A DNA stretch of 64,000 nt from Microbacterium murale (GTDB lineage Bacteria; Actinomycetota; Actinomycetes; Actinomycetales; Microbacteriaceae), in the NCBI RefSeq assembly GCF_030815955.1, contig NZ_JAUSXK010000001.1, positions 1,860,001 through 1,924,000 of the forward strand. The letters run 5' to 3'. The stretch's first letter is position 1, and each line of letters begins with the position of its first letter. Made by a program: the position numbers and the translations under genes. Below are positions 19,618-63,782 of the stretch, piece by piece. The notes below the pieces were generated by a model, which saw nothing but the letters and a program-made list of their open reading frames with translations, did no database searches and was not told the origin of the DNA.

Positions 19618-19667
19618 CTTCGTACCTTTCGTTTTGGTGTTCGGGTTCTGGTGTTCCGGGGATCCGA

Positions 19668-20420
19668 TCAGGTGCCCCGGCGGATTCGACCGCGGTAGCG
19701 GTCTTCGAGGACGGAGTTGTGCTCATCGCCGCCGGGAATGTTCGCGGAGATGTACATCGGGGGCGTGTCGCCGCGGTCGGCGATGGTGCGTGCCACGCCG
19801 AGCGTGAGCAGCTGCGCGATGTACGCCGCGGTGATCGACGAGATCGCACCGGCGCCGATGCCTCCGGAGACTTCGAGAGTCGTATCGCCATAGGGGGCGA
19901 GATTGTCGATCACGACGTCGGCGACGTCGGCGAGGCGTCTGCCGGACGGATGCTTCGGCTCGACGCGCATGGTGTGCTCCATGCTCGTCACCGCGATCAC
20001 GCTGTGACCGCGCTCCTTCGCCCACAGCGCTGCGCCGACGATCGAACCGTTCACCCCGGAGTTCGAGGCGATCATGAAGACGTCGTTCTCGCCGACCGGG
20101 ACCGTCGCCATCAGTTCTTCGACCAACCAGGGCTCTCGCTCCAGCGCGGGCGTCAGCACGCCGATCTCGCGATCGCCGTGCAGCACGAGGTCGCGGAGAG
20201 CGAAGTGATTGGTCGGGATCAACCCGCCTGCGCGCCCGGAGATCTCCATAGCGAAGGCTTCGGAGTGCCCTGTGCCGAAGGCATGGATCACTCCGCCGGC
20301 GTCCAAGGCGCCGACCATCAGCTCGATCGCCGGGTCGAGGGAGCCCGCCTCGGCATCGGCAGTCAGGCGAGTGAGGCGTTCGTTCGCCTCACGGAAGAGA
20401 TCGGACGGTGTCGCGGTCAA
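19668..20420 (-). CDS. SIS-domain sugar isomerase-like protein (UPF0309 type)
   Basis: A 250-residue cytoplasmic protein with one sugar isomerase (SIS) domain of the UPF0309 kind. Phosphosugar-site motifs are visible: HAFGTGHSEAFAMEISGRAGG near residue 50 and MIASNSGVNGS near 117, then VTSMEHT. The family is annotated as binding phosphorylated amino sugars, but its reaction is not established. It overlaps the RpiR regulator by 4 bp and precedes ngcE. A clear relative lies at 59685 in the second amino-sugar operon. Confidence 0.88.
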   Translation of the reverse strand: MTATPSDLFREANERLTRLTADAEAGSLDPAIELMVGALDAGGVIHAFGTGHSEAFAMEISGRAGGLIPTNHFALRDLVLHGDREIGVLTPALEREPWLVEELMATVPVGENDVFMIASNSGVNGSIVGAALWAKERGHSVIAVTSMEHTMRVEPKHPSGRRLADVADVVIDNLAPYGDTTLEVSGGIGAGAISSITAAYIAQLLTLGVARTIADRGDTPPMYISANIPGGDEHNSVLEDRYRGRIRRGT

Positions 20421-21364
20421 CTTGCTTCCTCCTGGAGTTCCGATCGGGCTTCCGGCGAACGGGAGTTCAGCTTCCGAGGTCGACGGTGCCCCGACACGGC
20501 CGTCGCGGTGGCGGCGAGCCGCCTCGTGGCCGGATCGAACATCTGCTGCGCGATGAGGAGATAGAGCAGATCGATCACGAAGAGCTGCGAGTGCTTCACC
20601 GACATGTCGTCAGGGCGCAGGTAGCCGACAGGTGCCGCCGTGGTTATCGACACATCGGCGATATCCGCGATCCAGCTCTCGTCGTCGTGAGTGATCGCAA
20701 CAGTGAGCGCGCCGACGGCACCCGCCTGGGCGAGCATCTGCACTGTCTCGTTGGTCTGCCCAGTGCTGGACACTCCGATCGCGACGGAGCTCTCACTCTG
20801 CAGGACGGCGCTGGCCAGACCGTCGTGCACATCCGACCAGGCATGCGCACTGATTCCGATGCGGTGCATCCTGCGCTGGAACTCCTGAGCGATTCCTGCG
20901 CTGCCGCCGAGGCCGTAGATGTCGACGTGCGTGCTGGCGGTGATCGCGCGCGCGGCCCGACCGACAGCATCCAGGTCGATGCCTTCTCGGGTGGTCTCGA
21001 GGCCGCTCACATGCACGTTGAGCAGCGTGCGCAGGATCTTCTCCGGCGAATCCGTCGGCTCGAACTCGGCACCGATGTCGGTGAGCCAGGCATGCTCGGC
21101 GGCAGCGTGCCCCAGTTCGGTCGCGATCGCGACACGGAACTGGGTGTATCCGTCGAAGCCGAGCGAGCGGCAGAAACGCGTGACGCTCGCAGGGGAGCTT
21201 CCCGACCGCTCAGCGAGTTCCGTGATCGTCAGCTCCGCGGGAGTGGTCGGGTGCGAGATCACTAGATCGGCGATCCGGGCCAGAGCGACCGGCATGGCAT
21301 GACGGCGCTCGGCGATACGGCTGACGATCGCGCCGTTGCCGGTGTTCATACTGCGTGGCACCAT
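20417..21364 (-). CDS. RpiR/MurR-family transcriptional regulator
   Basis: A 315-residue regulator. The N-terminal HTH (TITELAERSGSSPASVTRFCRSLGF) is followed by a C-terminal SIS domain (IYGLGGSAGIAQEFQRR, then GVSSTGQTNETVQML) that senses a phosphosugar. It heads the leftward operon with the SIS protein and ngcEFG and is divergent from a sugar kinase, so it likely controls both directions. GGAGG lies only 2 nt before ATG 21364 and 5 nt before the GTG at codon 2; the exact start is therefore uncertain within a few codons (a later ATG is at 21349). The 89-bp gap to the kinase would hold its operator; I see no clear dyad. Confidence 0.9.
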   Translation of the reverse strand: MVPRSMNTGNGAIVSRIAERRHAMPVALARIADLVISHPTTPAELTITELAERSGSSPASVTRFCRSLGFDGYTQFRVAIATELGHAAAEHAWLTDIGAEFEPTDSPEKILRTLLNVHVSGLETTREGIDLDAVGRAARAITASTHVDIYGLGGSAGIAQEFQRRMHRIGISAHAWSDVHDGLASAVLQSESSVAIGVSSTGQTNETVQMLAQAGAVGALTVAITHDDESWIADIADVSITTAAPVGYLRPDDMSVKHSQLFVIDLLYLLIAQQMFDPATRRLAATATAVSGHRRPRKLNSRSPEARSELQEEAS

Positions 21365-21453
21365 TGCCTCCAGAACTCACTCTCGCAGGAAGTTCCCGTT
21401 TGGATGAAAACTATTCTCACCGTCAGGGTGCGTCAAGTTAGGACGCGTAACAA

Positions 21454-22440
21454 ATGGGTCACGACATTCTGATGCTCGGAGTGGATGCGGGCGGAACATC
21501 GACCAGGGCGGTGCTGACGACCGGTGAGGGCGAGTGCATCGGCTACGGCGTCGGCGGGCGCGGGAACCCCATCGCTGTGGGTCCCGACCGCGCGGCGGAC
21601 GGTGTGCTCGATGCCATCGCGCTGGCGCTCGCGCCGTCCGCCCGCACCCTGGCCGAGGTGGAAGTCGTCACCGCGGCCATGGCAGGGCAGCGCGCCGAAG
21701 ACGGCGAAGGCGGATGGCTGGCCGACCGGCTCGCTGCCGAGGGATTCAGCGGCCGGCTCACCTTCGAGTCGGATCTGATGGCGACATACGCCAGCGGTTC
21801 GGTGGAGCCCTTCGGCTACGCGATCGTTGCCGGCACCGGGGCGTCCGCAGTCCGCGTCGCCGGTGGCCGTATCGACGCGACGGCGGATGGGCTGGGCTGG
21901 TTGCTGGGAGATCGTGGCAGCGGCTTCTGGATCGGGCACCGGGTGGCGCGGGCGGTCGTGCGGGATCTGGATCATGCGGGACCGGCGACGGTGCTGACGC
22001 GCGGCGTGCTGGAGCATCTCGGCATCGTCGAGGATGCGACACGCAGAGAGGGGCGCTCTCGCACGCTCGAACAGTTGGTCGAGACGTTGTACGCCATGCG
22101 GCCGATCGAGCTCGCTGCTCTCGCACCGCTCGCCTTCGTGGCCGGTGATCCGGTGGCCGAGAGCATTCTGCGGCGAGCGGGCGAGCACCTCGCCGATTCG
22201 CTCGCCGCAGTTCTGGCCGGCCCGGGGCCGCTCGTCGTCGGAGGCAGCGTGCTCTTTCGCCCGACCCCCGTCAGAGACGCGTTCCTCCACCGTCTCGGCG
22301 CTGCTGCGGCGGGCCTCGAGCTGATTCCGGTCATCGACGGTGCGGTCGGCGCCGGGCTGCTCGCGGTGCGTGCCGGCGGCGCGCGCGTGTCGTCCGAGAC
22401 ATTCGCCAGGCTCAGCGAGACGCTCTCGCGCTTCCGGTGA
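21454..22440 (+). CDS. N-acetylglucosamine kinase-like ATPase (BadF/BadG/BcrA/BcrD family)
   Basis: A 328-residue ASKHA-fold kinase. The phosphate-1 motif GVDAGGTSTRAVL is at the N-terminus, the phosphate-2 motif AIVAGTGASAVR near residue 130, GWLLGDRGSGFWIGHRV near 160 is characteristic of GlcNAc kinases of this family, and LVVGGSVLF near 265 is the adenosine motif. It probably phosphorylates an imported amino sugar at O6, acting after NgcEFG. It is divergent from rpiR and followed by the deaminase operon with its own promoter region. Confidence 0.87.
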   Translation: MGHDILMLGVDAGGTSTRAVLTTGEGECIGYGVGGRGNPIAVGPDRAADGVLDAIALALAPSARTLAEVEVVTAAMAGQRAEDGEGGWLADRLAAEGFSGRLTFESDLMATYASGSVEPFGYAIVAGTGASAVRVAGGRIDATADGLGWLLGDRGSGFWIGHRVARAVVRDLDHAGPATVLTRGVLEHLGIVEDATRREGRSRTLEQLVETLYAMRPIELAALAPLAFVAGDPVAESILRRAGEHLADSLAAVLAGPGPLVVGGSVLFRPTPVRDAFLHRLGAAAAGLELIPVIDGAVGAGLLAVRAGGARVSSETFARLSETLSRFR

Positions 22441-22476
22441 TCCCGCGCGATGCCACATCATCCTCGAAAGCTACTC

Positions 22477-22514
22477 TATGATCGTAATTTGGGGCAAGCA
22501 ATCAAAAACAAGCA
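22477..22514 (+). promoter_or_regulatory. Promoter and candidate DeoR operator before the deaminase operon
   Basis: TATGAT (22477-22482) is a -10 candidate. Downstream CAAGCA is repeated directly at 22495-22500 and 22509-22514, separated by the A-rich ATCAAAAA. AT-rich direct repeats just after the promoter are typical of DeoR-family repressor sites, and a DeoR gene ends this operon. Confidence 0.4.
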
Positions 22515-22535
22515 TTGAGCGGAAGGCATCCACAC

Positions 22536-23438
22536 ATGGCCAATTCGGTCCCCGGCGCATACATGCGCGAGGAACTCCTCTCCCAGCCGCAGACCTGGGC
22601 GCGCGCCGCCGAGATGCGCGACGAGCAGAAGGTGCTCCCGGCCGCGGGTGCACGTGTCGCCGTCGTGGGTTGCGGCACGTCCTGGTTCATCGCGCAGTCG
22701 TACGCCGCGCTGCGCGAGACGGCCGGTCTCGGCGTGACGGACGCTTACGCGGCATCCGAGGCGTTCCTCGATCGTGACTACGACGCCGTCGTGGCGCTCA
22801 CGCGCTCTGGGACCACCAGCGAGGTGCTGGAGCTCACTGAGCAGGTCAAGGGGAAGGTCCCGGTCATCGGCGTGATCGGCGACCCGACTTCGCCACTGGT
22901 CGACCTCGTCGACGAGGTCGTGCTGCTGCCCTTCGCCGACGAGCAATCGGTCGTGCAGACGCGCTTCGCCACCACCGCGCTCACACTGTTCCGCGCCTCG
23001 CTCGGCCTCCACGACGACGTCGCCCGTTCGATCGCGGATGCCGAAGCGGTGCTCGCGACCGCAGACGATAGCACGCTTACCGAAGCAGAGCAGTACACAT
23101 TCCTCGGGCGTAACTGGACCATCGGTCTCGCGCATGAGGCTGCGCTGAAGATGCGCGAGTCCTCGCAGTCCTGGACGGAGTCGTATCCTTCGATGGACTA
23201 CCGCCATGGCCCGATCGCGATCGCCGCGCCCGGCCGCATCACCTGGCAGTTCGGCGTCGCTCCCGAAGGGCTCGCAGGCCAGATCGAGGCCACCGGCGGC
23301 CGCTTCGTGCAGCACGACGTCGATCCGCTCGCCGACCTCGTACGACTGCACCGCGTCGCACTCGATCGCGCCGTGGCCAAGGGACTCAACCCGGATCTCC
23401 CCCGAAACCTCAGCCGATCGGTCATTCTGGACGCGTGA
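22536..23438 (+). CDS. SIS-domain aldose-ketose isomerase/deaminase (AgaS-like)
   Basis: A 300-residue protein with two SIS domains like the isomerase half of GlmS, without the glutaminase half. Motifs: VVGCGTSWFIAQSYA (phosphosugar loop 1), ALTRSGTTSEV (loop 2), then HEAALKMRESSQSWTESYPSMDYRHGP, the conserved active-site helix. AgaS-type enzymes deaminate galactosamine- or glucosamine-6-phosphate to a ketose 6-phosphate. The following ROK, PfkB and class II aldolase genes give exactly the next steps, which supports this role. ATG 22536 follows GGAAGG; a TTG at 22515 is a poorer alternative. Confidence 0.87.
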   Translation: MANSVPGAYMREELLSQPQTWARAAEMRDEQKVLPAAGARVAVVGCGTSWFIAQSYAALRETAGLGVTDAYAASEAFLDRDYDAVVALTRSGTTSEVLELTEQVKGKVPVIGVIGDPTSPLVDLVDEVVLLPFADEQSVVQTRFATTALTLFRASLGLHDDVARSIADAEAVLATADDSTLTEAEQYTFLGRNWTIGLAHEAALKMRESSQSWTESYPSMDYRHGPIAIAAPGRITWQFGVAPEGLAGQIEATGGRFVQHDVDPLADLVRLHRVALDRAVAKGLNPDLPRNLSRSVILDA

Positions 23439-24379
23439 TGTCCGCAGCAGCGATCGACCCGCCCAGCATCGGCGAGGGTGCGCCCGTACTCGCCTTCGAC
23501 GTCGGAGGCACCGACATCAAGTCGGCGATCTTCGACGCGAACGGCATCGCACTCGGGCTGCGTCGCACGCCGACCCCGGCTCTGGGTGACGACCCGGCTG
23601 CGGCGCTGATCGAAGAGCTCGCCCGTCTCTCGGACGAGCTGCGGGCGCAGCATCCGGAAGTCGCACCTGCGGCCCTCGGCTTCGTCGTGCCGGGCATCGT
23701 CGATGCGGATGCCGGGATCGGCGTCTTCGCGAGCAACCTGGGGTGGCGCGATGCGCCGCTGCGTGCGCTTGCCGCTGAACGGCTGCAGCTGCCGATCGCC
23801 TTCGATCACGACGTGCGCTCCGCGAGCTGGGCAGAGCACCAGCTCGGCGGCGCCCGCGCACATGACGACGTCGTCGTGCTGATCATCGGCACCGGTATCG
23901 CCGGAGCGATCCTCGTGGGCGGCGAGCCATACACCGCGGGCGGCTACGCCGGCGAGATCGGGCATTCCCCGATCGCTGACGGCCCCGTGTGCGCGTGCGG
24001 TGCGCGCGGCTGCCTCGAGGCCGTCGCTTCTGCGGGGGCCATCGCCCGCCGCTATGCCGCAGAGACCGGCACCACTCCGGACGGCGCCAGGGATGTGATC
24101 GCACGTGCTGCCGCCGGCGACACTGTCGCCGCGCGCATCTGGGACGACGCGCTCGACGCGCTCACGATGTCGCTCGCACAGCTGACCGCGATGTTCGCGC
24201 CGGAGGCGATCGTGATCGGCGGCGGCCTCTCCCGCGCCGGGGGCGCACTGTTCGACGAGCTGCGCAGGCGGCTGGCGGCCAGGCTCAGTTTCCATCGGCT
24301 GCCGGAACTGCTGCCGGCCGAGCTTCAAGGCGACGCCGGGCTCATCGGCGCAGCCCTGCGCGCGAGGGAGTCGACATGA
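23438..24379 (+). CDS. ROK-family sugar kinase
   Basis: A 313-residue cytoplasmic kinase. The ATP-binding DVGGTDIKSA motif lies near residue 21. The ROK signature and zinc site are GEIGHSPIADGPVCACGARGCLEAV (residues about 170-195, given here in part: His plus three Cys). No N-terminal HTH is present, so it is an enzyme and not a ROK repressor. It overlaps the deaminase stop (GTGATG: GTG 23435 or ATG 23438 are both possible starts). It likely phosphorylates a hexose or amino sugar. Together with the BadF-type kinase there are two kinases in this island, hinting at two entry sugars. Confidence 0.88.
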   Translation: MSAAAIDPPSIGEGAPVLAFDVGGTDIKSAIFDANGIALGLRRTPTPALGDDPAAALIEELARLSDELRAQHPEVAPAALGFVVPGIVDADAGIGVFASNLGWRDAPLRALAAERLQLPIAFDHDVRSASWAEHQLGGARAHDDVVVLIIGTGIAGAILVGGEPYTAGGYAGEIGHSPIADGPVCACGARGCLEAVASAGAIARRYAAETGTTPDGARDVIARAAAGDTVAARIWDDALDALTMSLAQLTAMFAPEAIVIGGGLSRAGGALFDELRRRLAARLSFHRLPELLPAELQGDAGLIGAALRAREST

Positions 24380-25317
24380 TCGTCACCGTCACGGCGAACC
24401 CCGCACTCGACCTGACGTGGGAGATCGACCGCATCGAGATCGGTGCCGCGCACCGCGCAGACACCGGTGCCGTTCGCGCCGGCGGCAAGGGTCTCAACGT
24501 CGCAAGGGTCGCTCACGCCCAGGGATATCCGGTTCGTGCGGTGACGACCTGCGGCGGCGCGACCGGTGCAGAGCTGCGCGCCGAGCTCGAGGCGAGCGGG
24601 GTGCCGCACCTGCTCGTTCCGGTCGCCGCGCCGACCCGGCGCAGCGTCGCGTGGGTCGACCGTGCGCTCGGAGACACCACGATCGTCAATGAGCGCGGTG
24701 CGAATCCGAGCGCCGACGAATGGGCGGCATTCAGTGACGTCGTGCGCGCAGAGGCCGCCGCTGCATCGGTGCTGGTGATCTCCGGGAGCTTCCCGCCCGG
24801 TGCACCGCCGACGCTTCTGCCGGAACTCATCACCGCAGGCGCCGGGCGGCCCGTGATCGTCGACACGTCGGGCCCCGCGCTGCTCGCGGCGGCGGATGCC
24901 GGGGTCGCGGTGCTCAAGCCCAACAAAGCCGAACTCGCGGAAGCCACCGGGCTCGCCGATCCGATCGCCGGGGCTCGCGAGCTTCTGCGCCGCGGTGCGG
25001 GTCTCGTGCTGCTCTCGCTCGGCGCCGACGGCATGTACGCGGTCACGACCGATCGGCTGCTGCGCGCATGCCTGCCTGAGCCGCTCGCCGGGAACCCGAC
25101 GGGGGCGGGAGATGCCGCTGTCGCGGCCGCGGCGACGCTGCTGACCGACGGCACCAGCGATCCCGAATCGATCCTGCGTCGTGCGACCGCCTGGTCGGCA
25201 GCAGCCGTGCTCATGCCTCTGGCCGGCGAGATCCATCCGACCTGGCGTGACATTGAACGAGCGCTGATCGTGGACACCTTTCCCGCCCCGACGCACCATC
25301 TGGAAGAGCCCGCATGA
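24376..25317 (+). CDS. PfkB-family hexose kinase (1-phosphofructokinase / tagatose-6-phosphate kinase type)
   Basis: A 313-residue ribokinase-fold enzyme. TANPALDLTW at the N-terminus and AGGKGLNVARV near 40 are the PfkB substrate motif. The C-terminal AGNPTGAGDAAVAA is PfkB signature 2 with the anion hole and the catalytic Asp. VLKPNKAELAEATG is typical of the FruK/LacC branch, which phosphorylate ketose monophosphates. In this operon it should turn the deaminase product into the bisphosphate cleaved by the next gene. ATG 24376 overlaps the ROK stop; the long frame beginning 23989 is a shadow. Confidence 0.9.
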   Translation: MIVTVTANPALDLTWEIDRIEIGAAHRADTGAVRAGGKGLNVARVAHAQGYPVRAVTTCGGATGAELRAELEASGVPHLLVPVAAPTRRSVAWVDRALGDTTIVNERGANPSADEWAAFSDVVRAEAAAASVLVISGSFPPGAPPTLLPELITAGAGRPVIVDTSGPALLAAADAGVAVLKPNKAELAEATGLADPIAGARELLRRGAGLVLLSLGADGMYAVTTDRLLRACLPEPLAGNPTGAGDAAVAAAATLLTDGTSDPESILRRATAWSAAAVLMPLAGEIHPTWRDIERALIVDTFPAPTHHLEEPA

Positions 25318-26156
25318 CCCTCGTCTCCGCCGCCGACCTCGTCCGCGAGGCTGCCGCCCGCAACCGTGGCATCGGCGCCTTCAACGTGATCCACCTCGAG
25401 ACCGCCGAGGCACTGGTCGCGGCATCCGCTCAGGCTCGGCTCCCGGTCATCCTGCAGATCTCGCAGAACTGCGCGAAGTATCACGGCGCGCTCGAGCCGA
25501 TCGCCCTGGCGACGCTCGCCGTCGCTCGCAGGGCCGAGACACCGGTCGCCGTGCACCTCGATCACGCCGAGCTGCCAGAACTCGTGGACGAGGCCATCGC
25601 GCTCGGATTCGGATCGGCGATGTTCGACGGCGGCGCCCTGCCCTACGACGAGAACGTCGCCCTGACCCGTGAGGTCGCGGCCCGCGCGCACGCGGCCGGC
25701 GTCTACGTCGAAGGCGAGCTGGGCGAGGTCGGCGGGAAGGACGGCGCCCACGCGCCGGGCGTGCGCACCGATCCTGACGAGGCCAGCGCGTTCGTCGCCG
25801 AGACCGGAGTTGACGCGCTCGCCGTCGCTGTGGGGTCGTCCCACGCAATGACCGATCGCAGCGCATCCCTCGACGTCGACCTCATCGCGCGGCTGAGAGG
25901 AGCCCTCGATGTGCCGTTGGTGCTGCACGGGTCGTCCGGCGTCGCGGATGCTGTCATCATGGATGCCGTGCACGCCGGTATGACCAAGATCAACGTCTCC
26001 ACACATCTGAACGGTTTCTTCACACGGGCCGTGCGTCAGACGCTCGACGCCGATGAGCGCCTGGTCGACTCGCGCAAGTACATCGCCCCCGGCCGTGCGG
26101 CGGTCGTCGACGAGGCCGCCCGGATGCTGCGGCTGTTCGCCCTGCAGGGCGCGTGA
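25314..26156 (+). CDS. Class II ketose-bisphosphate aldolase (tagatose/fructose type)
   Basis: A 280-residue zinc-dependent aldolase. GIGAFNVIHLETAEALV opens the barrel. VAVHLDHAELPELV near residue 80 holds the catalytic Asp and the first zinc His. GELGEVGGKDG, VAVGSSHAM (second zinc His) and VLHGSSGV (third zinc His) follow in order. It resembles the GatY/KbaY/AgaY subfamily of tagatose-1,6-bisphosphate aldolases and also FbaA; which epimer is used cannot be decided. It ends the catabolic set by giving dihydroxyacetone phosphate and glyceraldehyde 3-phosphate. It overlaps neighbours on both sides. Confidence 0.9.
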   Translation: MTLVSAADLVREAAARNRGIGAFNVIHLETAEALVAASAQARLPVILQISQNCAKYHGALEPIALATLAVARRAETPVAVHLDHAELPELVDEAIALGFGSAMFDGGALPYDENVALTREVAARAHAAGVYVEGELGEVGGKDGAHAPGVRTDPDEASAFVAETGVDALAVAVGSSHAMTDRSASLDVDLIARLRGALDVPLVLHGSSGVADAVIMDAVHAGMTKINVSTHLNGFFTRAVRQTLDADERLVDSRKYIAPGRAAVVDEAARMLRLFALQGA

Positions 26157-55838: not shown

Positions 55839-56039
55839 TCACGCCCGAGGGTACCCGTCCGGTCGTTCGGCGAACAGGGTCACGTCGCATCCGTCCACGC
55901 GGAGATCGAGCAGACCGATCGAGCGCAGCCCGCGCGCGGCGAGGTCGGGTTCTCCCGGTTTCCCGACCGGGTCATCCGCACGGTTTCCCGGCGAATCCGC
56001 GTTCCAGGAACGAAACCCTTGCAATGCAAACGATTGCAT
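55839..56039 (-). other. Possible gene remnant upstream of the cupin gene
   Basis: The minus-strand frame ends GLRSIGLLDLRVDGCDVTLF and RPDGYPRA, then a stop, directly followed by the ribosome site of the cupin gene. The last 45 residues look protein-like, but the start (ATG 56039) lies inside the symporter operator and the first 20 residues are not convincing. It may be the truncated 3' end of a lost gene or a small gene with another start. No family recognised. Confidence 0.3.
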
Positions 56040-56106: not shown

Positions 56107-57669
56107 ATGGGTGTGCTCGACTGGGTTGTCGTTGCGCTGTACTTCCTCGTGATGATCGCGATCGGCATCTACGCGAGATCTCGTATCAAGAATGCTGCAG
56201 ACTTCTTCGTCGCGGGAGGCAAGATCCCTTGGTGGCTGACCGGGATCTCGCACCACATGTCCGGGTACTCGGCCGCGGTCTTCGTCGGCTATGCAGCCCT
56301 CGCTTATACGACCGGGTTCTCTGTGTACGTCTGGTGGGCACTGAGCATCACGATCGCCTGTGGTCTCGGTACATGGTTGTTCGCCCCGCGCTGGCCGCGG
56401 TTGCGCCAGCGTCTCGGGATCATCTCTCCGCTCGAGTACGTGGCCAAGCGCTTCAACATCGCCACCGAGCAGGTGCTCGCATGGTCGGGCGTGGCCCTGA
56501 AGGTCTTCGACGTCGCCGCGAAATGGAGCGCTTCGGCGATCCTGTTGCAGGTGTTCGCTGGCGTGCCGATCGGCTGGGGCATCCTCCTCGTCGGCGGCGT
56601 GACGATGATCTACTCGACTATCGGCGGAGTCTGGGCTGACGTGCTCACCGACTTCGGTCAGTTCCTGATCCAGCTGGTCGCAGCCATCGCCCTGGCCGTC
56701 ATCGTCATGGTCCACCTCGACGGATTCGCGACCATCTGGACGATGTGGGACGACCTTCCGGCCGGTCACGCCGATCCCTTTGCCGGCACGCTGACGGCAC
56801 CGTTCTTCCTGGCCTACATCCTCATCTCCACCCTCTCCTACAACGGGGGGACGTGGAATCTCGCCATGCGCATGATCTCGACTCCGAACGGTCGTGAAGC
56901 GCGACGATCGATGATCCTCTCCGGCGTTCTGTATCTGGTGTGGCCGCTTGTGCTGTTCTTCCCGATGTGGGCGGCGCCGATTCTGTTGCCCGGCCTCGAG
57001 GATCCGAGTCAGTCGTACGCGTTGCTGGTGAACAACCTGCTCCCGGTGGGACTTGTCGGTCTCGTGCTGGTCGGCATGTTCAGCCACACCATGGCGATGA
57101 CTTCGTCCGACTCGAATGCGATCGCCTCAGTCGTCGTGCGAGACATCATCCCGATGTTCCGCAAGGGGCGCAGCTTCCTTCCGGCCAAGGCCGAGTTGTG
57201 GTTCAGCCGGTTCATCACCTTCCTCTTCATCGCCGGTTCCATGGTCATCGCACTCACGAGCGACTCCTTCGGCGGCGTTCTCGGCCTGCTGATCCTGTGG
57301 TTCGGTGCATTGGTCGGCCCTGTCGCGGTGCCGATGCTGCTCGGGATGCTTCCCTGGTTCCGCCGTTCCGGCTCCGCCGCAGCGCTCATTTCGACCGCCC
57401 TCGGCCTGGTCACATTCGCGCTGAACCGATGGGTCTGGCCAGGCTGGGTCGAGTCGTTCGGAGCGAACGCACAGGCCTGGTCGGTCGCCACACCTGTGAT
57501 CGTCTCTCTCGTCTCATTCATTGCGATCGGCCTCATCCGCTCCGAAGCCAGCGTCGAGACCGACGCGCTGCTCGACTCGATCGCCGCAGATGTTCCGGAA
57601 GCCGAAGTCGTGCCCACGGCAGGATACGGAACGGCCGCCGACGTAAGCGCAGACGACGCCCGTGCCTGA
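56107..57669 (+). CDS. Sodium:solute symporter (SSS family), amino-sugar operon
   Basis: A 520-residue transporter with 13 or so helices. LDWVVVALYFLVMIAIGIYA at the N-terminus, FVAGGKIPWWLTGISHHMSGYSA with the unwound helix of the first repeat, and MFSHTMAMTSSDSNAIASV with Ser residues typical of the Na2 site, place it in the SSS family. Members move sugars, sialic acid or myo-inositol with sodium. AAGGAG is 6 nt before ATG 56107. It heads the operon; its stop overlaps the epimerase start. The cargo is probably an amino sugar or derivative, by context. Confidence 0.9.
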   Translation: MGVLDWVVVALYFLVMIAIGIYARSRIKNAADFFVAGGKIPWWLTGISHHMSGYSAAVFVGYAALAYTTGFSVYVWWALSITIACGLGTWLFAPRWPRLRQRLGIISPLEYVAKRFNIATEQVLAWSGVALKVFDVAAKWSASAILLQVFAGVPIGWGILLVGGVTMIYSTIGGVWADVLTDFGQFLIQLVAAIALAVIVMVHLDGFATIWTMWDDLPAGHADPFAGTLTAPFFLAYILISTLSYNGGTWNLAMRMISTPNGREARRSMILSGVLYLVWPLVLFFPMWAAPILLPGLEDPSQSYALLVNNLLPVGLVGLVLVGMFSHTMAMTSSDSNAIASVVVRDIIPMFRKGRSFLPAKAELWFSRFITFLFIAGSMVIALTSDSFGGVLGLLILWFGALVGPVAVPMLLGMLPWFRRSGSAAALISTALGLVTFALNRWVWPGWVESFGANAQAWSVATPVIVSLVSFIAIGLIRSEASVETDALLDSIAADVPEAEVVPTAGYGTAADVSADDARA

Positions 57670-58936
57670 ATCGGCGACGTCATGGCGCAGACACCTTGAG
57701 ACGGTGGTGTTGCCGTGGTGGGAGCAGGCTGTTCGACCGCACGGTGGCGTGTTCACTTGCTACAGCAATGACGGGACGCGCATCAGTGACGACCTCTACA
57801 CCTGGTCGCAGGGACGTTGGGCGTGGCTCGCGGCCGAACTCGCCGAAGAGGCGCGCGCCGGTCGGCTGTCCGTCGACGCCGAGCTCTGGCAGCAGCGTGC
57901 CGTCGACTCCGCGGCGCTGATCGCGGATCACGCTCTGCTGGGCGACGGCACCGTCGCGTTCCGCTTGTCGTCCGACGGGACGCCCTTGCCGAGCGGCCCG
58001 GATGGAGAACTCGCGACGAGCGTGTTCGCCGATCTGTTCGCCGCTCTGGGATTGGCGGGCGGCCTCCGGGCACTCCCGGTGGACGACTCGCGACGTTCGC
58101 ACTGGACGGGTGCTGCGACCCAGCTGCTGCTCACGGCAGAGCTGAGCAGTGTTGAGCGTACGGCGCTCAGCGAGCCGTATCCGGTACCCGAGGGGTACGC
58201 CGATCTCGCCGCACCGATGAGTCTCGTGCATACGGCATCCGAGTTGCTGCGCGCGGTGCCCGACAGTGCACCCGCTCGCGCGGTACGCGACCGCGCCTGG
58301 ACGCGGCTGCACGGCGAGAACGGCTTTCTGCGCGAAGACTGGTGGTGGGAGTTTCGCCCCGATGATCAGACAGAGCAGACCCTGCTCTCTCGGCACCGTA
58401 CACCGGGACATCTGCTGGAGCTGACGTGGATGCTGGTGCATTCCGCCGAGGAAGCATCCGCTCGAGGTGATATCGGCGCGGAACAGCTACCTGGTACGCG
58501 CGGCCTCGCCCGACTCGCGCGGCGTGCAGTCGCGATCGGCGAAGACAACGAACAGGGCGGACTGTTCCGCTACGTCGACGCCTCCGGACGGAGGCCTGAG
58601 GGGCCGCATGCCGAAGCCTTGTCACGTTACGAGCAACTCGTCACCGACACGTGGGACACGAAGCTCTGGTGGGTGCACGCCGAGGCCATGTACGCGACGG
58701 CGCTGCTCGCCCAGCGCACTGGCGATGCTCATCTCGCCGCGGTCGCCCAGCTCATCTCCGACTACACGTTGTCGACGTTCCCCGATCCTGATGGCGCGGA
58801 GTGGCTGCAGATCCGCAACCGCGCGGGCGTGCCGCTCGATCAGGTCGTGGCCCTCCCCGTCAAGGATCCGTTCCATATCGCCCGCAGCCTGCTGCTGCTC
58901 AATCGGCTTACCGCCACACTTTCCCAGGAGATCTGA
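57662..58936 (+). CDS. AGE-family epimerase/isomerase (N-acylglucosamine 2-epimerase fold)
   Basis: A 424-residue (alpha/alpha)6-barrel enzyme. GRWAWLAAELAEE, RHRTPGHLLELTWML (catalytic His region) and TDTWDTKLWWVHAEAMYATAL (second His) are the AGE signature blocks. Members interconvert N-acetylmannosamine and N-acetylglucosamine, mannose and fructose, or cellobiose. Next to NagA- and NagB-like genes, a 2-epimerase for an N-acyl hexosamine is likely. Start GTG 57662 overlaps the symporter stop by 8 bp. Confidence 0.88.
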   Translation: MPESATSWRRHLETVVLPWWEQAVRPHGGVFTCYSNDGTRISDDLYTWSQGRWAWLAAELAEEARAGRLSVDAELWQQRAVDSAALIADHALLGDGTVAFRLSSDGTPLPSGPDGELATSVFADLFAALGLAGGLRALPVDDSRRSHWTGAATQLLLTAELSSVERTALSEPYPVPEGYADLAAPMSLVHTASELLRAVPDSAPARAVRDRAWTRLHGENGFLREDWWWEFRPDDQTEQTLLSRHRTPGHLLELTWMLVHSAEEASARGDIGAEQLPGTRGLARLARRAVAIGEDNEQGGLFRYVDASGRRPEGPHAEALSRYEQLVTDTWDTKLWWVHAEAMYATALLAQRTGDAHLAAVAQLISDYTLSTFPDPDGAEWLQIRNRAGVPLDQVVALPVKDPFHIARSLLLLNRLTATLSQEI

Positions 58937-59692
58937 ATGCCGCTGTACCCTCTCGCTGTCCACCGCTTCAGCACGACGCACGAGCTCGGCCATGCCGCCG
59001 GCGCCCGTGCGGCCGTGCATATCGCCCAAGCGATCGAAGAGCGCGGCACCGCGCGCGTGATGCTCGCTGCCGCACCTTCACAACTCGCGACTCTGCAGGC
59101 GCTCGCCGCATCCGACGTCGACTTCTCGCGTGTGGAGTTCTTCCACATGGACGACTATCTCGGCCTCGCGCCGGATGCACCACAGGGCTTCGGCAACTGG
59201 CTGGAGAACAACTTCCTCTCCCAGTTGTCGCAGCCCGCCGCCTTCTACCGCATCGATGCGTCACGCCCGCCGGAGGAAAGCGCCGCCGCCTACGCTGAGG
59301 CAATGGGAGAGGCGGAATTCGACGTGACGCTCTGCGGCTTGGGTGTGAACGGCCACCTCGCCTTCAATGATCCTCCGGCGGATTTTGAAGACCCATTCGC
59401 CGCGCGCCCGGTGCTCCTCGACGACGTCTCGCGCGGACAGCAGGTCGATGAGGGACACTTCCCAGACCTCGACGCTGTGCCCGCTCAGGCGATCACTGTC
59501 ACGATTCCCCGGCTGCTGCACGCGCGGCATGTGATCTGCAGTGTTCTCGGCATCGCGAAGCGGCAGGCGGTCGCAGACACGATCGCCCGAGAACCCGACC
59601 CGCAATATCCTGGCACCGCTCTGCACACGCACCGCGACGCACATCTCTATCTCGACGCGGGCTCAACCCCCGACGGAGCCGATGATGAGTGA
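58937..59692 (+). CDS. nagB: Glucosamine-6-phosphate deaminase-like protein
   Basis: A 251-residue NagB-fold isomerase. FFHMDDYLGL contains the catalytic base Asp72. LCGLGVNGHLAFNDPP carries Asn138-Gly-His140 and Asp145 where E. coli NagB has Asp-Gly-His and Glu; Asn occurs in other bacterial NagBs as I recall, but Asp in place of the Glu is unusual. It should convert a hexosamine 6-phosphate to a ketose 6-phosphate and ammonia, perhaps for a non-standard substrate. Its ATG directly follows the epimerase stop. Confidence 0.85.
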   Translation: MPLYPLAVHRFSTTHELGHAAGARAAVHIAQAIEERGTARVMLAAAPSQLATLQALAASDVDFSRVEFFHMDDYLGLAPDAPQGFGNWLENNFLSQLSQPAAFYRIDASRPPEESAAAYAEAMGEAEFDVTLCGLGVNGHLAFNDPPADFEDPFAARPVLLDDVSRGQQVDEGHFPDLDAVPAQAITVTIPRLLHARHVICSVLGIAKRQAVADTIAREPDPQYPGTALHTHRDAHLYLDAGSTPDGADDE

Positions 59693-60440
59693 GATCGCCG
59701 ACGAGTACTTCGATGCCGTCACCGGACTGATGGCCAGAATCAGGGCCGAGGAGGGTGCAGGTGTCGCGCAGGCCGCGGGTGTGCTCGCGGCCCAGATCCG
59801 TGAAGATCGCCTGGTCCACGTCTACGGTCCAGGCGGCCACTCGAATCTCGCCAGCCAGGAGGTCTTCTTCCGCGCGGGTGGGCTCATGCATGTTTCGGCG
59901 ATCCTCGACGAGGGCACACTGCTGTCATCAGGTGCGCTTCGTTCGATGGCGATGGAACGGCTGCCCGGCTACGGTCGCATCGTGATCGATGATGCGGGAC
60001 TCGGCGCGGATGACGTGCTCGTGCTCGTGAATGCTTACGGGATCAACGCTGCGCTCATTGACGCGGCGCTACGTGCCGGTGAGCTGGGTGTGAAGGTCAT
60101 CGGTGTCTCGTCTCGCGCGCACGCAGAGCAGACCGCCGCGGAGCATCCGGCCCGGCATCCGTCGAAGTCGAATCTGCATGACGTCGTCGACGTGCACATC
60201 GACACGAAGGTGCCAGTGGGGGATGCCGTCGTGAAGGTGCCCGGCGCGATCGAGGCGTCCGGCGCGGTTTCGACTTTCGCGAATGCCTTCGCGATGAACT
60301 GGCTCATGCTGGAGACGCTGGAACTGCTCTCGGTCGATGGCGCAGAGGTGCCGATGTGGCGTTCCGGCAATGCGCCGGGTGGTGACGAGGCGAATGCTCG
60401 TTTCATCGAGCGGTTCTCCGGAAGGGTCGCATGGCTGTGA
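59685..60440 (+). CDS. SIS-domain sugar isomerase-like protein (UPF0309 type), second copy
   Basis: A 251-residue single SIS-domain protein: VHVYGPGGHSNLASQEVFFRAGG (phosphosugar loop) and VLVNAYGINAALIDAAL, then a cysteine-free loop SSRAHAEQTAAEHPARHPSKSN rich in His. It is a diverged relative of the protein at 19668. The reaction is unknown. ATG 59685 (GGAG 7 nt upstream) overlaps the NagB-like gene by 8 bp; ATG 59682 is an alternative. Its end overlaps the deacetylase gene by 10 bp. Confidence 0.86.
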   Translation: MSEIADEYFDAVTGLMARIRAEEGAGVAQAAGVLAAQIREDRLVHVYGPGGHSNLASQEVFFRAGGLMHVSAILDEGTLLSSGALRSMAMERLPGYGRIVIDDAGLGADDVLVLVNAYGINAALIDAALRAGELGVKVIGVSSRAHAEQTAAEHPARHPSKSNLHDVVDVHIDTKVPVGDAVVKVPGAIEASGAVSTFANAFAMNWLMLETLELLSVDGAEVPMWRSGNAPGGDEANARFIERFSGRVAWL

Positions 60441-61570
60441 CCACCCTCGTCGGACGATCGGTGTCCACCGGCGGTGGAATCGCGGTCGACGTCGAGGGCG
60501 ATCGGATCACCGGCATCTCGGACTGCGCTGTCGATCCGGGAGCGCCCTGGATCGTGCCAGGCTTCGTCGATCTGCAGGTCAACGGATTCGCAGGTCATGA
60601 TGTGAATGCCGTGATGCCGGATGCCGAGGCCATCGGCGAGATCACGCGTGAGCTGGGCGCTCGTGGTGTGACCACCTGGGTGCCGACGGTGATCACCGGC
60701 ACTGAAGCGCAGATCTGCGCACGCCTCGACGCCGTGACCGCTGCGGTGCAGAGCGATCCGGTCGTCGCAGCGGCGGTGCCGTTCGTTCATGTGGAAGGTC
60801 CATTCCTCTCCGAGTTCGATGGGCCGCGCGGCGTGCACGATCGCAGCGCGGTCCGCCCGATCGATGCCTCCGAGGTTGCCCGCTGGGCGACGCACGGCCG
60901 GATCGGCTACGTCACGCTCTCACCTCACGATGACGCCACTCATGAGCAGATCGCCGAGATCGTCGCATCCGGAATCGCGGTCGCCGTCGGCCACACTCAT
61001 GCCGGTCCGGACCAGATCCGACGCGCGGTCGATGCAGGAGCGACCCTGTCCACGCATCTCGGCAATGGCATCTTCAGTGAGTTGCCGCGCCATCCCAACG
61101 CGATCTGGGCGCAGCTCGCCGAGGACCGACTGCGCTGCGGCCTCATCGGCGATGGGCATCATCTGCCCGCCGATGCGTTCACGGCGATGGCGCGGGCGCT
61201 CGGACCCGATCGCGCGTTTCTTGTGTCGGATGCCGTCGAGCTGGCGGGCGCAGCACCTGGGCGGTACCGCACTCCGGTCGGCGGTGAGGTCGAGTTGACG
61301 CCGGACGGAAAACTGGAGTATTCGGATACCGGCCTGCTTGCCGGGTCTGCAGCGAGCCTCGCCGACTGCGTCGAGTGGGTCACCACCGCGACCCCGATCG
61401 GCCTCGCGGGCGCCGTCATGATGGCCACCCGCGTGCCGGGCATGATCATCAGAGAGCTCACCGGAGGGGCGCACGATGCAGGACGGATCGTGCCAGGGGC
61501 GAGGGCCGACCTTGTCTTCTTGGACGACTTCGGTCGTGCGATCGAGACGTTCCGCGGGACGGACGGGTGA
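60431..61570 (+). CDS. nagA: N-acetylglucosamine-6-phosphate deacetylase-like amidohydrolase
   Basis: A 379-residue amidohydrolase. IVPGFVDLQVNGFAGHD opens the barrel, HVEGPFLSE gives the metal Glu122, VGHTHA His188, THLGNGI His209, GDGHHLP substrate contact and FLVSDAV the catalytic Asp267. All key NagA residues are present, but the HLFNAM block of classical NagA is HLGNGI with LPRHPNAIW, marking a separate subfamily. It removes the N-acyl group of an amino sugar phosphate. Overlaps the SIS gene by 10 bp and the ceramidase-like gene by 1 bp. Confidence 0.87.
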   Translation: MAVTTLVGRSVSTGGGIAVDVEGDRITGISDCAVDPGAPWIVPGFVDLQVNGFAGHDVNAVMPDAEAIGEITRELGARGVTTWVPTVITGTEAQICARLDAVTAAVQSDPVVAAAVPFVHVEGPFLSEFDGPRGVHDRSAVRPIDASEVARWATHGRIGYVTLSPHDDATHEQIAEIVASGIAVAVGHTHAGPDQIRRAVDAGATLSTHLGNGIFSELPRHPNAIWAQLAEDRLRCGLIGDGHHLPADAFTAMARALGPDRAFLVSDAVELAGAAPGRYRTPVGGEVELTPDGKLEYSDTGLLAGSAASLADCVEWVTTATPIGLAGAVMMATRVPGMIIRELTGGAHDAGRIVPGARADLVFLDDFGRAIETFRGTDG

Positions 61571-62808
61571 TGGTGGCGGCTGCGTCGACGGTGGCTGTCG
61601 GCGTCGCGGTGCGTTTCGTGCCGGTGCCGGTGGGGACGCCGATGGCGGGATTCGCCGGACGGGGGTCCAGCAGCACTGGTGTGCACGACCCGATGAGCGT
61701 CCGCGCCCTGGTGATCGCCGATGCAGCGTTTGTTGCAGTCGACTGCGGCGCATTGCACGAGCGCACGTGCGAGGAGCTGCGCGCGGAGATACCGGACCTC
61801 GTGCTGCATGCCACGCATACCCACTCCGGCCCCTGCGTGTCATGGGAGCGGATCGGCACCGACTCTCCTCACGTGCGGCACGCCGTGCAGGATGCCATCG
61901 CTGATGCCGTGCGCGCAGCGAAGGCAGCGCGCACGCCGTGCAGCGTCTCGTACACCGAGGTTCAGGGAGTCGGTGTCGCGAAGAATCGCAGACATCTCGA
62001 TCGCGTCATCGACCCTCCCGTGCAAGCGGTGGGCTTCGATCACGACGGCGCCCGAATTGCGACACTGGTGACGTATCCCTGTCATCCGGTGGTACTCGAC
62101 GGCGCGAACACCTTGATCTCCAGTGACTACATCTCGCCGTTGCGGACACGAATCGAAACCGCGTATCCGGGCAGCGTGTGCATCTTTGCGACAGGTGCTG
62201 CCGGTGACGTGAACACGGGGCACAGCGCGGAGGCATCTTATGTCCCGGGCGGAAGTACGCGCACATTCGAGGAAGCAGAGCGCGTGGGCACCCTGCTTGC
62301 TGACGCTGTCATCGGCAGCGTCACCACAGAGGTCCCGGTTTCGGGCGCGGTGCTCGAGGCGGCGGAGGTAGAGCTCGATCTTGAGCCGTTCTCGGCTGAT
62401 GCGGTGGGGCGCCACGTCGCAGCCTGGGAGCGCGAGCGCGAGGAGGGCACAGAGCGGGAACTGCTTCTGGAGACGTGGATGCAGTGGGCCGAGGCTCTTC
62501 CCGCCGCACCCGCATCGACCTGGCGCGGCCGAGTGTCGGTGCTGCGCTGCGGTGACCTGCGGATCGCGGGCCTTCCTGGTGAGCCCTTCCTCGCCGCTGC
62601 CGATGAGCTTCGTTCGAGGCATGATGGGCCGATGATGGTGCTCGGATATTGCGACGGGGTTCCCGGCTATCTGCCGACCGCCGAGGAGTATGTCCACGGC
62701 GGCTACGAGGTCGTCGACGCTCACCGGTACTACGCCATGCCCTCGCCGTTCGCGCGGGGTTCGCTGGAACGGGTCGTCGCGGCCGCAGCCGTACTGTTGG
62801 ACGCGTGA
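61570..62808 (+). CDS. Neutral/alkaline ceramidase-like zinc hydrolase, cytoplasmic
   Basis: A 412-residue protein matching the N-terminal catalytic domain of neutral ceramidases: HATHTHSGP (zinc His83, His85), TYPCHPVVL (His172), SSDYISPLR and IFATGAAGDVN. Neutral ceramidases cleave the amide bond of N-acyl sphingosines, are secreted and carry an extra C-terminal domain. This protein has no signal peptide and lacks the long C-terminal part, so it should act in the cytoplasm, probably on another amide. Being inside an amino-sugar operon, an N-acylated sugar or sugar acid is a plausible substrate. ATG 61570 shares a base with the nagA stop. Confidence 0.8.
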   Translation: MVAAASTVAVGVAVRFVPVPVGTPMAGFAGRGSSSTGVHDPMSVRALVIADAAFVAVDCGALHERTCEELRAEIPDLVLHATHTHSGPCVSWERIGTDSPHVRHAVQDAIADAVRAAKAARTPCSVSYTEVQGVGVAKNRRHLDRVIDPPVQAVGFDHDGARIATLVTYPCHPVVLDGANTLISSDYISPLRTRIETAYPGSVCIFATGAAGDVNTGHSAEASYVPGGSTRTFEEAERVGTLLADAVIGSVTTEVPVSGAVLEAAEVELDLEPFSADAVGRHVAAWEREREEGTERELLLETWMQWAEALPAAPASTWRGRVSVLRCGDLRIAGLPGEPFLAAADELRSRHDGPMMVLGYCDGVPGYLPTAEEYVHGGYEVVDAHRYYAMPSPFARGSLERVVAAAAVLLDA

Positions 62809-63782
62809 TGACCGTCGCGAATGCCCGTGCTTCGCTGGTGGACGTGGCGCGCACGCTCGGGGTCGCGCCATCGACGGTGTCGCGGGCCTTCAACCATCCG
62901 CAGTTGCTGAAACCGGAGACGGTCGCTGCCGTGCACGCGGAGGCGGAGCGGCTCGGGTATGTACCGAATCGTCATGCGCGCGCGCTCATCACAGGGCGCA
63001 CCGGCGCTGTCGGTCTCATCGTCCCGGACATCACCAACCCGTTCTTCCCGAAGCTCGCACGCGCCGCGCAGCGTGCCGGGGAGCAGCACGGTCTGGCGAT
63101 GTTCATCGCCGAGACGAACTACGACCCCGAGCAGGAGCGCCGGCAGATCGCGACGATGGCCCCCCAGGCTGAGGGTGTCATCGTCGCCTCGTCGCGTCTG
63201 CCGCACGATGAGCTGACGCTGATAGCCGAGCGCACCCGTCTGGTGCTCATCAACACCGACGCCCCCGGACTGTCACGGGTACTCATCAGCGCGCGGGATG
63301 CGTTGCGAGCGGGCGTGGATCACCTGGTCGCGCACGGCGCGAGACGTCTCTGCTACGTCGGCGGCCCGGCGCGCTCATGGGCGGAGAGTGAGCGGCGTGC
63401 GACTGTAGAGGCGGCGGTGGCGGCGTATCGGCTCCCGCTCGTGCAGCTTCGTGACGAATCGGGCACGTACAACGAAGCGCGCGCGTTGGCTGAGCGCGTG
63501 GTGGATGCCGAAGCCGACGCAGTGATCGCGTACGACGATGTCGTCGCGCACGGCGTGCTGGACGGGCTCTATGTGCGCGGCGTGCGGGTGCCACAGGACG
63601 TCGCACTGCTCGGATGCGACGACGCGCTGCCCATCCAGACGCATCCACGCATGTCGACCATCAGGTTTCCGTCGGCAGAAGCGGTGCGCGCCGCGATGGC
63701 GTTGGTGGTCGCTGACGGCGATCTTGTCGACAAGCGTATCGAGGTGCACGGCGTGCTCGAGATGCGCGAGACGACTCCGTAG
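62808..63782 (+). CDS. LacI-family transcriptional regulator
   Basis: A 324-residue repressor. The N-terminal HTH and hinge (LVDVARTLGVAPSTVSRAFN, then RLGYVPNRHARAL) are followed by a periplasmic-binding-like sensor domain (GLIVPDITNPFFPKLARAAQ). The usual hinge helix LP is intact enough (NRHARALITGRTG). Last gene of the seven-gene operon, overlapping the hydrolase by one base (TGATG). It likely binds the ATGCAAACGATTGCAT dyad upstream of the symporter; inducer unknown. Confidence 0.92.
   Translation: MTVANARASLVDVARTLGVAPSTVSRAFNHPQLLKPETVAAVHAEAERLGYVPNRHARALITGRTGAVGLIVPDITNPFFPKLARAAQRAGEQHGLAMFIAETNYDPEQERRQIATMAPQAEGVIVASSRLPHDELTLIAERTRLVLINTDAPGLSRVLISARDALRAGVDHLVAHGARRLCYVGGPARSWAESERRATVEAAVAAYRLPLVQLRDESGTYNEARALAERVVDAEADAVIAYDDVVAHGVLDGLYVRGVRVPQDVALLGCDDALPIQTHPRMSTIRFPSAEAVRAAMALVVADGDLVDKRIEVHGVLEMRETTP

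Follow-up and report, generated by a model that had tools for sequence, protein, structure and literature searches.

Which sugar is degraded by an operon that joins a deacetylase and a deaminase of N-acetylglucosamine (GlcNAc) metabolism to a ceramidase-fold protein and has no kinase? This question is raised by seven genes of Microbacterium murale, located at 56107..63782 on the + strand of the window, the whole stretch of 64,000 bases that was analyzed (bases 1860001-1924000 of the 4.11 Mb single-contig genome). They encode a sodium:solute symporter, an AGE-family epimerase, a NagB-like deaminase, a UPF0309 SIS protein, a NagA-like deacetylase, a short ceramidase-fold protein (CER) and a LacI-family regulator. 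Comparison with related proteins and loci suggests that these enzymes of the GlcNAc-6-phosphate family are best read as having been refitted from a C6 phosphate to a C6 carboxylate. We give about an even chance to the operon importing, and degrading without a kinase, an N-acetylated 2-amino-2-deoxy-hexuronic acid, that is, the uronic acid of GlcNAc (GlcNAcA) or of N-acetylmannosamine (ManNAc; ManNAcA) or one of that type. Centrally, we infer that an amino-uronate would go in and fructuronate (or tagaturonate) and ammonia would come out.

Bacterial capsules, O-antigens and teichuronic acids commonly contain amino-uronic acids. Literature searches returned no catabolic route for them and no published description of this operon or its route, one query being too broad to decide. 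What is new is a conserved kinase-free amino-sugar gene set with a probable amino-uronate substrate. Such a set would provide a concrete route for amino-uronate breakdown, hints at a way in which enzymes of phosphosugars may come to accept a carboxylate in place of a phosphate, and offers a starting point for assigning functions to short ceramidase-fold proteins and to a non-NagS branch of UPF0309. An earlier note on this DNA had proposed a route for an N-acylated amino sugar; that reading is partly supported, and it lacked the probable C6 carboxylate, the relationship to NagS and the fructuronate/mannonate link seen in relatives.

The gene set and its recurrence

The families, order and common strand given in the earlier note agree with Pfam and NCBIfam assignments, the cut-offs of SSF, GlcNAc_2-epim, Glucosamine_iso, SIS_2, Ceramidase_alk and LacI/Peripla_BP being passed. 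The SSS-family symporter gene (56107..57669, +; PF00474, 113 bits) encodes a protein 88% identical to that of L069, the closest relative (loci are designated by L numbers), and passes none of the substrate-specific NCBIfam models. The AGE-family epimerase (57662..58936, +, GTG start; PF07221, 66 bits) matches N-acylglucosamine 2-epimerases of the Protein Data Bank (PDB) with E of about 1e-24, and is predicted to epimerize an unphosphorylated N-acyl amino sugar at C2. Junctions between successive genes are -8 (symporter/AGE), 0 (AGE/NagB), -8 (NagB/SIS), -10 (SIS/NagA), -4 (NagA/CER) and -1 (CER/LacI) bases, and the gene order recurs in relatives, in support of the single unit that had been described; start codons are ambiguous for SIS (59682/59685), CER (61567/61570/61573) and LacI (62805/62808). 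None of the seven genes scored as a kinase in Pfam and NCBIfam scans, confirming the claim of a kinase-free operon, and no NanA lyase, NanK or NanE of the sialic acid nan operon was found among them. The operon shares with the nag (GlcNAc-6-phosphate) pathway the superfamilies of its deacetylase and deaminase and their combination with a sugar importer, but differs from it in having neither kinase nor phosphotransferase system, in its replaced NagB phosphate loop, in a NagA score under the curated cut-off, and in the addition of AGE, UPF0309 SIS and ceramidase-fold proteins.

An order-wide search (396 genomes, M. murale included) gave CER relatives in 32, and 20 of these loci (18 kb each) plus L032 were compared for gene order. 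Order and strand of all seven genes were identical in L033, L034, L035, L043, L045 and L046. L069, from the same genus, repeats this order with identities of 61-88% across the seven, and in L081, from another family, all seven are present but rearranged. The co-occurrence of the seven families, which the earlier note had put forward for checking, therefore holds in seven other actinobacterial loci with the same order and one rearranged locus, and the shared order indicates that the arrangement is not due to chance. In L046 (6705-9702) the SIS, NagA and CER frames are broken, which may reflect pseudogenes or sequencing errors.

An AGE relative was present in 4 of 247 genomes of the genus, two with the full operon (M. 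murale and L069) and two with cousin clusters of AGE, NagB, NagA and LacI (L070, L071), and in 13 of 394 genomes of a class sample, indicating that the operon is sporadic yet widely spread. Cousin AGE/NagB/NagA clusters in L070 and L078 lie beside large proteins with DUF6923, PQQ_2 or tachylectin-type matches; the large neighbors of L070, L078 and L080 (754-878 residues, that of L080 being similar in size) are possible polysaccharide-active enzymes.

A protein search of plasmid records revealed the SIS protein at 64-68% identity on seven alphaproteobacterial plasmids of five genera (Martelella, Ponticoccus, Nitratireductor with three, Microvirga and Devosia), each of which also carries CER. 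All seven loci read, in this order, LacI, NagB-SIS-NagA-CER and ABC-transporter genes. The transporter is exchanged between phyla while the NagB-SIS-NagA-CER order stays, and the ceramidase-fold gene, which had been counted as part of the unit, accompanies the core in another phylum.

Phosphate-contact residues of the NagB-like, UPF0309 and NagA-like proteins

Alignments of the NagB-like deaminase (58937..59692, +; PF01182, 74 bits) show AAPSQ replacing the phosphate loop TGGTP, a D141 to N change, loss of R172 and retention of K208. The TG(G/S)TP loop, aligned as TGGTP/TGSTP in E. coli NagB and in the other NagB of the same genome, is missing in all 27 aligned NagB-like proteins, 25 having [AS]APSQ and two ATGNSQ. 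All 27 have N for D141 and keep H143 and the lysine equivalent to K208; R172 is conserved in none of them, K standing in its place in one, and all share a new [SC]RxQQ motif. We take R172 to be one of the NagB phosphate-site residues. In SmuNagB, simulations are reported to place the C6-phosphate contacts at Ser37, Thr38 and Lys194 (PMC8369159); Ser37 and Thr38 belong to the loop that the 27 proteins lack. These changes point, with moderate confidence, to an enzyme that would isomerize and deaminate an amino-uronate to D-fructuronate and ammonia.

Loss of phosphate contacts in both the NagB-like and SIS proteins, together with the lack of a kinase among the seven genes, would also suit a kinase-free route for a neutral N-acetylhexosamine (HexNAc), namely ManNAc, GlcNAc or N-acetylgalactosamine (GalNAc), in which AGE epimerizes and the NagA-like enzyme deacetylates the sugar, the NagB-like enzyme makes fructose from free glucosamine and a general fructokinase then acts; AGE enzymes, moreover, act on free sugars. 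On the other hand, the lysine kept at the C6 pocket of the NagB-like protein suits an anion, and we regard this route as unlikely.

The UPF0309 SIS protein (PRK02947; 59685..60440, alternative start 59682, +; NF002805, 218 bits) is a homologue of NagS, the GlcNAc-6-phosphate dehydratase of Streptomyces (SCO4393/PDB 9EOL, E=4e-34), and is 35.6% identical to it over 239 residues. NagS is reported to contact phosphate through Ser54, Ser119 and Ser121 and to require H53, R64, E94 and D179, and Ser91 has been proposed to aid its C3 dehydration step (PMC12680351). In all 24 SIS proteins of the operon type, N-A-Y occupies positions 119-121 and M position 91, and H53, S54, R64, E94, D179 and N228 are retained. 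Two of the three phosphate-contact serines are thus lost and the NagS-essential residues kept. An S-x-S loop was present in 23 of 29 other UPF0309 proteins (28 loci), drawn from the best 30 loci of a phylum-wide search (396 genomes, 53 with matches). The NagS group is described as sharing at least 58.7% mutual identity, belonging to Streptomycetaceae and lying beside dmdR1 (PMC12680351); the operon protein falls outside this group by its identity and by its gene context, a catabolic operon not beside dmdR1. It must be considered that the NagS substitutions S54A, S119A and S121A are reported to cost little activity (PMC12680351), so that serine loss is no proof of substrate change.

A second UPF0309 gene of the window (19668-20420, minus strand) has an intact S-N-S phosphate loop. 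It belongs to a cluster (18199-26156) of UPF0309 SIS, RpiR-type regulator, BadF/BadG ATPase, SIS protein, ROK, class II aldolase and ABC solute-binding protein genes; thus the kinase-free operon and a kinase-bearing cluster differ in the UPF0309 loop within one window. A further variant with an N-N-I loop occurs in L112, L113 and L115 (L159-L161); neighbors in L159-L161 are LmbE-like by eye, and matches to SDR/PfkB, and in L160 to NagB, are weak.

The NagA-like N-deacetylase (60431..61570, +) scored 148.7 bits with TIGR00221 nagA (cut-off 225.65) and weakly with Amidohydro_1 (22.2 vs 25 bits). In the alignment the substrate contacts of canonical NagA, an N, an R and an H as described for MSNagA (PMC6016474), are all in place, and consequently no loss of a phosphate site is evident. 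The claim that deaminase and deacetylase both deviate from classical motifs therefore stands strongly for the NagB-like protein, extends just as strongly to SIS, and holds weakly for the NagA-like one.

The retained NagA residues, the tolerance of NagS to serine loss and the enzyme families themselves, which are those of GlcNAc metabolism, would fit an operon of the ordinary kind for GlcNAc or ManNAc, whose enzymes have diverged and which relies on a kinase in trans. Against this, the residue changes are fixed across two phyla, and three UPF0309 homologues from outside Streptomycetaceae are reported to have negligible or no GlcNAc-6-phosphate activity (PMC12680351). The genome also has a separate GlcNAc-type locus at 3.01-3.02 Mb, with two ROK-family genes, a NagB with the TGSTP loop and a higher-scoring NagA (222.4 bits, also slightly under the nagA cut-off); a gene neighboring that locus is GH20-like by eye. 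This explanation is the least probable of those considered, and, since the separate locus exists, the operon is probably not for plain GlcNAc, in line with the earlier note.

Uronate genes beside related loci

Uronate genes were sought by tblastn (E 1e-8) around core loci, a core locus being one that has NagB and SIS or more; for the window, 20 kb was searched. The query set was small and came partly from counted loci, so misses are possible; labels rest on family models and the loci are not independent. Within these limits, uronate genes adjoin 7 of 23 core loci, one of four cousins, none of six SIS-CER-only loci and none of 15 lone-CER loci. L069 has a Mannitol_dh-family gene whose best model is fructuronate reductase (224 bits, cut-off 603), overlapping by 4 bases a D-mannonate dehydratase gene, ManD (684 bits, cut-off 550); both are divergent from the symporter gene, with the exact operator TGCAAACGTTTGCA between. 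The Nitratireductor loci have a fructuronate-reductase-like gene and UxuA immediately behind the transporter (UxuA 513 bits in L139, cut-off 200, and 96% identical in the other two), the reductase-like gene being truncated in L140, and L081 has a fructuronate-reductase-like (UxuB-like) gene beside NagB.

Two loci with GC of 0.38-0.40 and an N-A-C loop in SIS, L153 (scanned with family models) and L154 (genes assigned by similarity), contain the tagaturonate epimerase UxaE (555 bits) and a D-mannonate oxidoreductase (338 bits, cut-off 281) together with PfkB, SIS, acetamidase/formamidase-family, NagA-like and NagB-like genes, and are perhaps a GalNAc-uronate version of the same pathway. The clusters (L153 919-11198, L154 2812-12929) also hold 6PGDH and a LarA-type hexonate epimerase homologue.

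UxuA, ManD, UxaE and the D-mannonate oxidoreductase model are uronate genes found beside the core in three separate lineages, and this argues against the neutral HexNAc route, even though UxuB-like proteins could be fructose or mannitol dehydrogenases. The same neighbors could instead serve a glycosaminoglycan-like material, with NagA, NagB and SIS acting on GlcNAc-6-phosphate from a kinase encoded elsewhere and the adjacent genes handling a separate glucuronate residue. Uronate and amino-sugar genes do occur together in some relatives, the genome has kinase-family genes elsewhere (21 ROK matches), and in L140 a short gene annotated as ROK and a NanE gene lie past LacI, some 1-2.5 kb away. However, the genome's glucuronate isomerase, used as the one query, had no match near the 23 core loci (a 61-residue match was found in cousin L070), and L153/L154 need a source of tagaturonate or fructuronate, yet gave no UxaC match. 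The loss of the NagB phosphate loop in every aligned protein and the presence of another NagB and NagA in the genome also speak against this explanation, which we regard as distinctly unlikely. The genome's own ROK, used as query, matched in none of the 23 core loci at E 1e-8.

Should a glucuronate isomerase not supply the keto-uronate in those clusters, the NagB-like deaminase would be its natural source. In the amino-uronate pathway that we favor, the symporter would import the free sugar acid, AGE would interconvert its ManNAc and GlcNAc forms at C2, the NagA-like enzyme would take off the N-acetyl group, and the NagB-like enzyme would release fructuronate. Fructuronate reductase and D-mannonate dehydratase would then yield 2-keto-3-deoxygluconate (KDG); genes for this step adjoin the operon in some relatives, and the window genome has ManD, two UxuB-like (fructuronate-reductase-like) genes and UxaC at other places, none of them next to the operon. 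The bacterial hexuronate pathway (UxuB, UxuA/ManD, UxaE) would take the proposed product, but entry here would be through the NagB-like deaminase and not through glucuronate isomerase. AGE- and NagB-type chemistry requires a C1 aldehyde. The GlcNAc1A (ong) pathway of oxidative chitin degradation is likewise described as deacetylating and deaminating an acidic amino sugar on the way to KDG without a kinase, but its reported substrate is an aldonic acid (C1) and its OngB is another kind of amidohydrolase (PMC12017989).

Several observations weigh against an amino-uronate, in addition to the mild effect of the NagS serine substitutions and the intact NagA contacts. The 20 kb of the window that was searched gave no uronate gene beside the operon, and neither did 15 other core loci; TIGR00695 UxuA was not found in the window genome. 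The UxuB-like proteins share their family with mannitol and arabinitol dehydrogenases and score below the fructuronate reductase cut-off. AGE is annotated in only one of the seven plasmid loci (Martelella); five others have a 'hypothetical protein' at its place (that of L139 without NCBIfam match) and the Ponticoccus locus has no gene there. L153/L154 hold a kinase gene, the KDG-kinase-like PfkB. Core loci without CER (L178 and L180 were scanned) carry a GH3 gene, most like beta-N-acetylhexosaminidase in L178, under the cut-off, which suits a neutral HexNAc, and no uronic-acid-specific glycosidase was identified.

The ceramidase-fold protein and the operator

CER (61567..62808, +; PF04734, 41 bits, cut-off 32) is a short amidohydrolase of the neutral ceramidase fold by profile (PDB 2ZWS, E 2e-21; 4WGK, E 1e-18). 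Its histidine, glutamate and tyrosine motifs align with those of neutral ceramidases, zinc-site motifs included, and all 14 aligned CER proteins share H84, H86, H173, E339, Y368 and Y380 (numbered as in the window protein); these residues presumably form a zinc site. Unlike the neutral ceramidases, CER has about 413 residues (vs 646-688), has AGDxN where 2ZWS has AGNLS, and sits in a sugar operon. It scored 17.9 bits with the full-length ceramidase model NF041649 (cut-off 1200), and an AlphaFold model (two sequences) had a pLDDT of 45.5.

CER lies at most two genes from the N-A-Y/Met91 SIS in 22 of 24 loci, adjoining it or with NagA between; in the exceptions, L177 and L181, it is elsewhere in the same genome. 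Some of these loci were found through CER, and in the 15 found through AGE or SIS queries, the window excluded, CER was present in all. Five SIS proteins with Thr91 and N-A-F, S-A-F or N-A-C loops had no CER match in 17-19 kb, and in L153/L154 the acetamidase/formamidase-family gene lies between SIS and NagA, with no CER found. Of ten genomes from the order that carry a lone CER (identity of at least about 40%), eight have no SIS match above 37% identity and G245 and G295 have one of 72-74%; the same-genus genome G479, likewise with a lone CER, has no SIS match above 32%. CER can thus also serve elsewhere. As a sole marker of the operon CER was rejected, operon and lone copies being intermixed in the CER tree. 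Nor do SIS and CER always occur with NagA/NagB: SIS-CER pairs without a NagA/NagB match in 12-19 kb were found in L152 (8600-10734) and L172-L176, and NagB-SIS-NagA without a CER match in L178-L180. In SIS-CER-only loci a gene of 600-650 residues lies immediately upstream, with no Pfam hit in L174 and L175; the L175 pair is accompanied by an SBP_bac_5 binding protein, a DegT aminotransferase and an M81 protein (Pfam).

SIS and CER may form an extra module, in which SIS would work at C2/C3, eliminating or exchanging the C3 substituent, and CER would hydrolyze an amide made or needed in that step; we propose this only tentatively. Since a hydrophobic Met replaces Ser91 and co-occurs with an amide hydrolase, the C3 substituent may differ, and might, speculatively, be an acylamino group. 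Rather unlikely, as a full pathway, is one for the 2,3-diacylamino-hexuronic acids of bacterial envelopes: SIS would eliminate the C3 acylamino group in a NagS/MurQ-like manner, hence the Met near O3, CER would hydrolyze the released amide (the acetamidase/formamidase-family protein replacing it in L153/L154), and the HexNAc-uronate would be epimerized, deacetylated and deaminated without phosphorylation to fructuronate. An equally simple alternative to the C3 acylamino group is that CER opens a uronamide (C6 amide). That CER opens a second amide of the substrate, as the earlier note had supposed, is possible.

The reported relationship of NagS to MurQ (PMC12680351) and the peptide-type SBP_bac_5 protein beside the L175 pair, with similar genes seen by eye in relatives, would suit muramic acid or muramyl peptides, SIS being a MurQ-like etherase on unphosphorylated N-acetylmuramic acid and CER cutting the lactyl-alanine amide. 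This is very unlikely: it leaves the uronate genes unexplained, and the seven-gene operon has no lactate gene, peptidoglycan genes not having been searched systematically.

The LacI-family regulator (62808..63782, alternative start 62805, +; PF00356, 38 bits; PF13377, 80 bits) would repress the amino-uronate operon at TGCAANCGNTTGCA until the inducer comes. The predicted LacI-type operator TGCAAACGATTGCA (56025..56038) is the sole exact match to TGCAANCGNTTGCA in the 4.1 Mb genome, ends 69 bases before the symporter start and has a chance expectation of 0.01 in the window. No further exact operator pointed to a regulon beyond the operon, and four one-mismatch sites compared with 13 in a reversed-pattern control. 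The motif was not found in L033, L034 and L152. It lies upstream of six of eight actinobacterial seven-gene operons, the window included, and between LacI and NagB in all seven alphaproteobacterial loci, with a TTGACA-like box abutting it in the five inspected.

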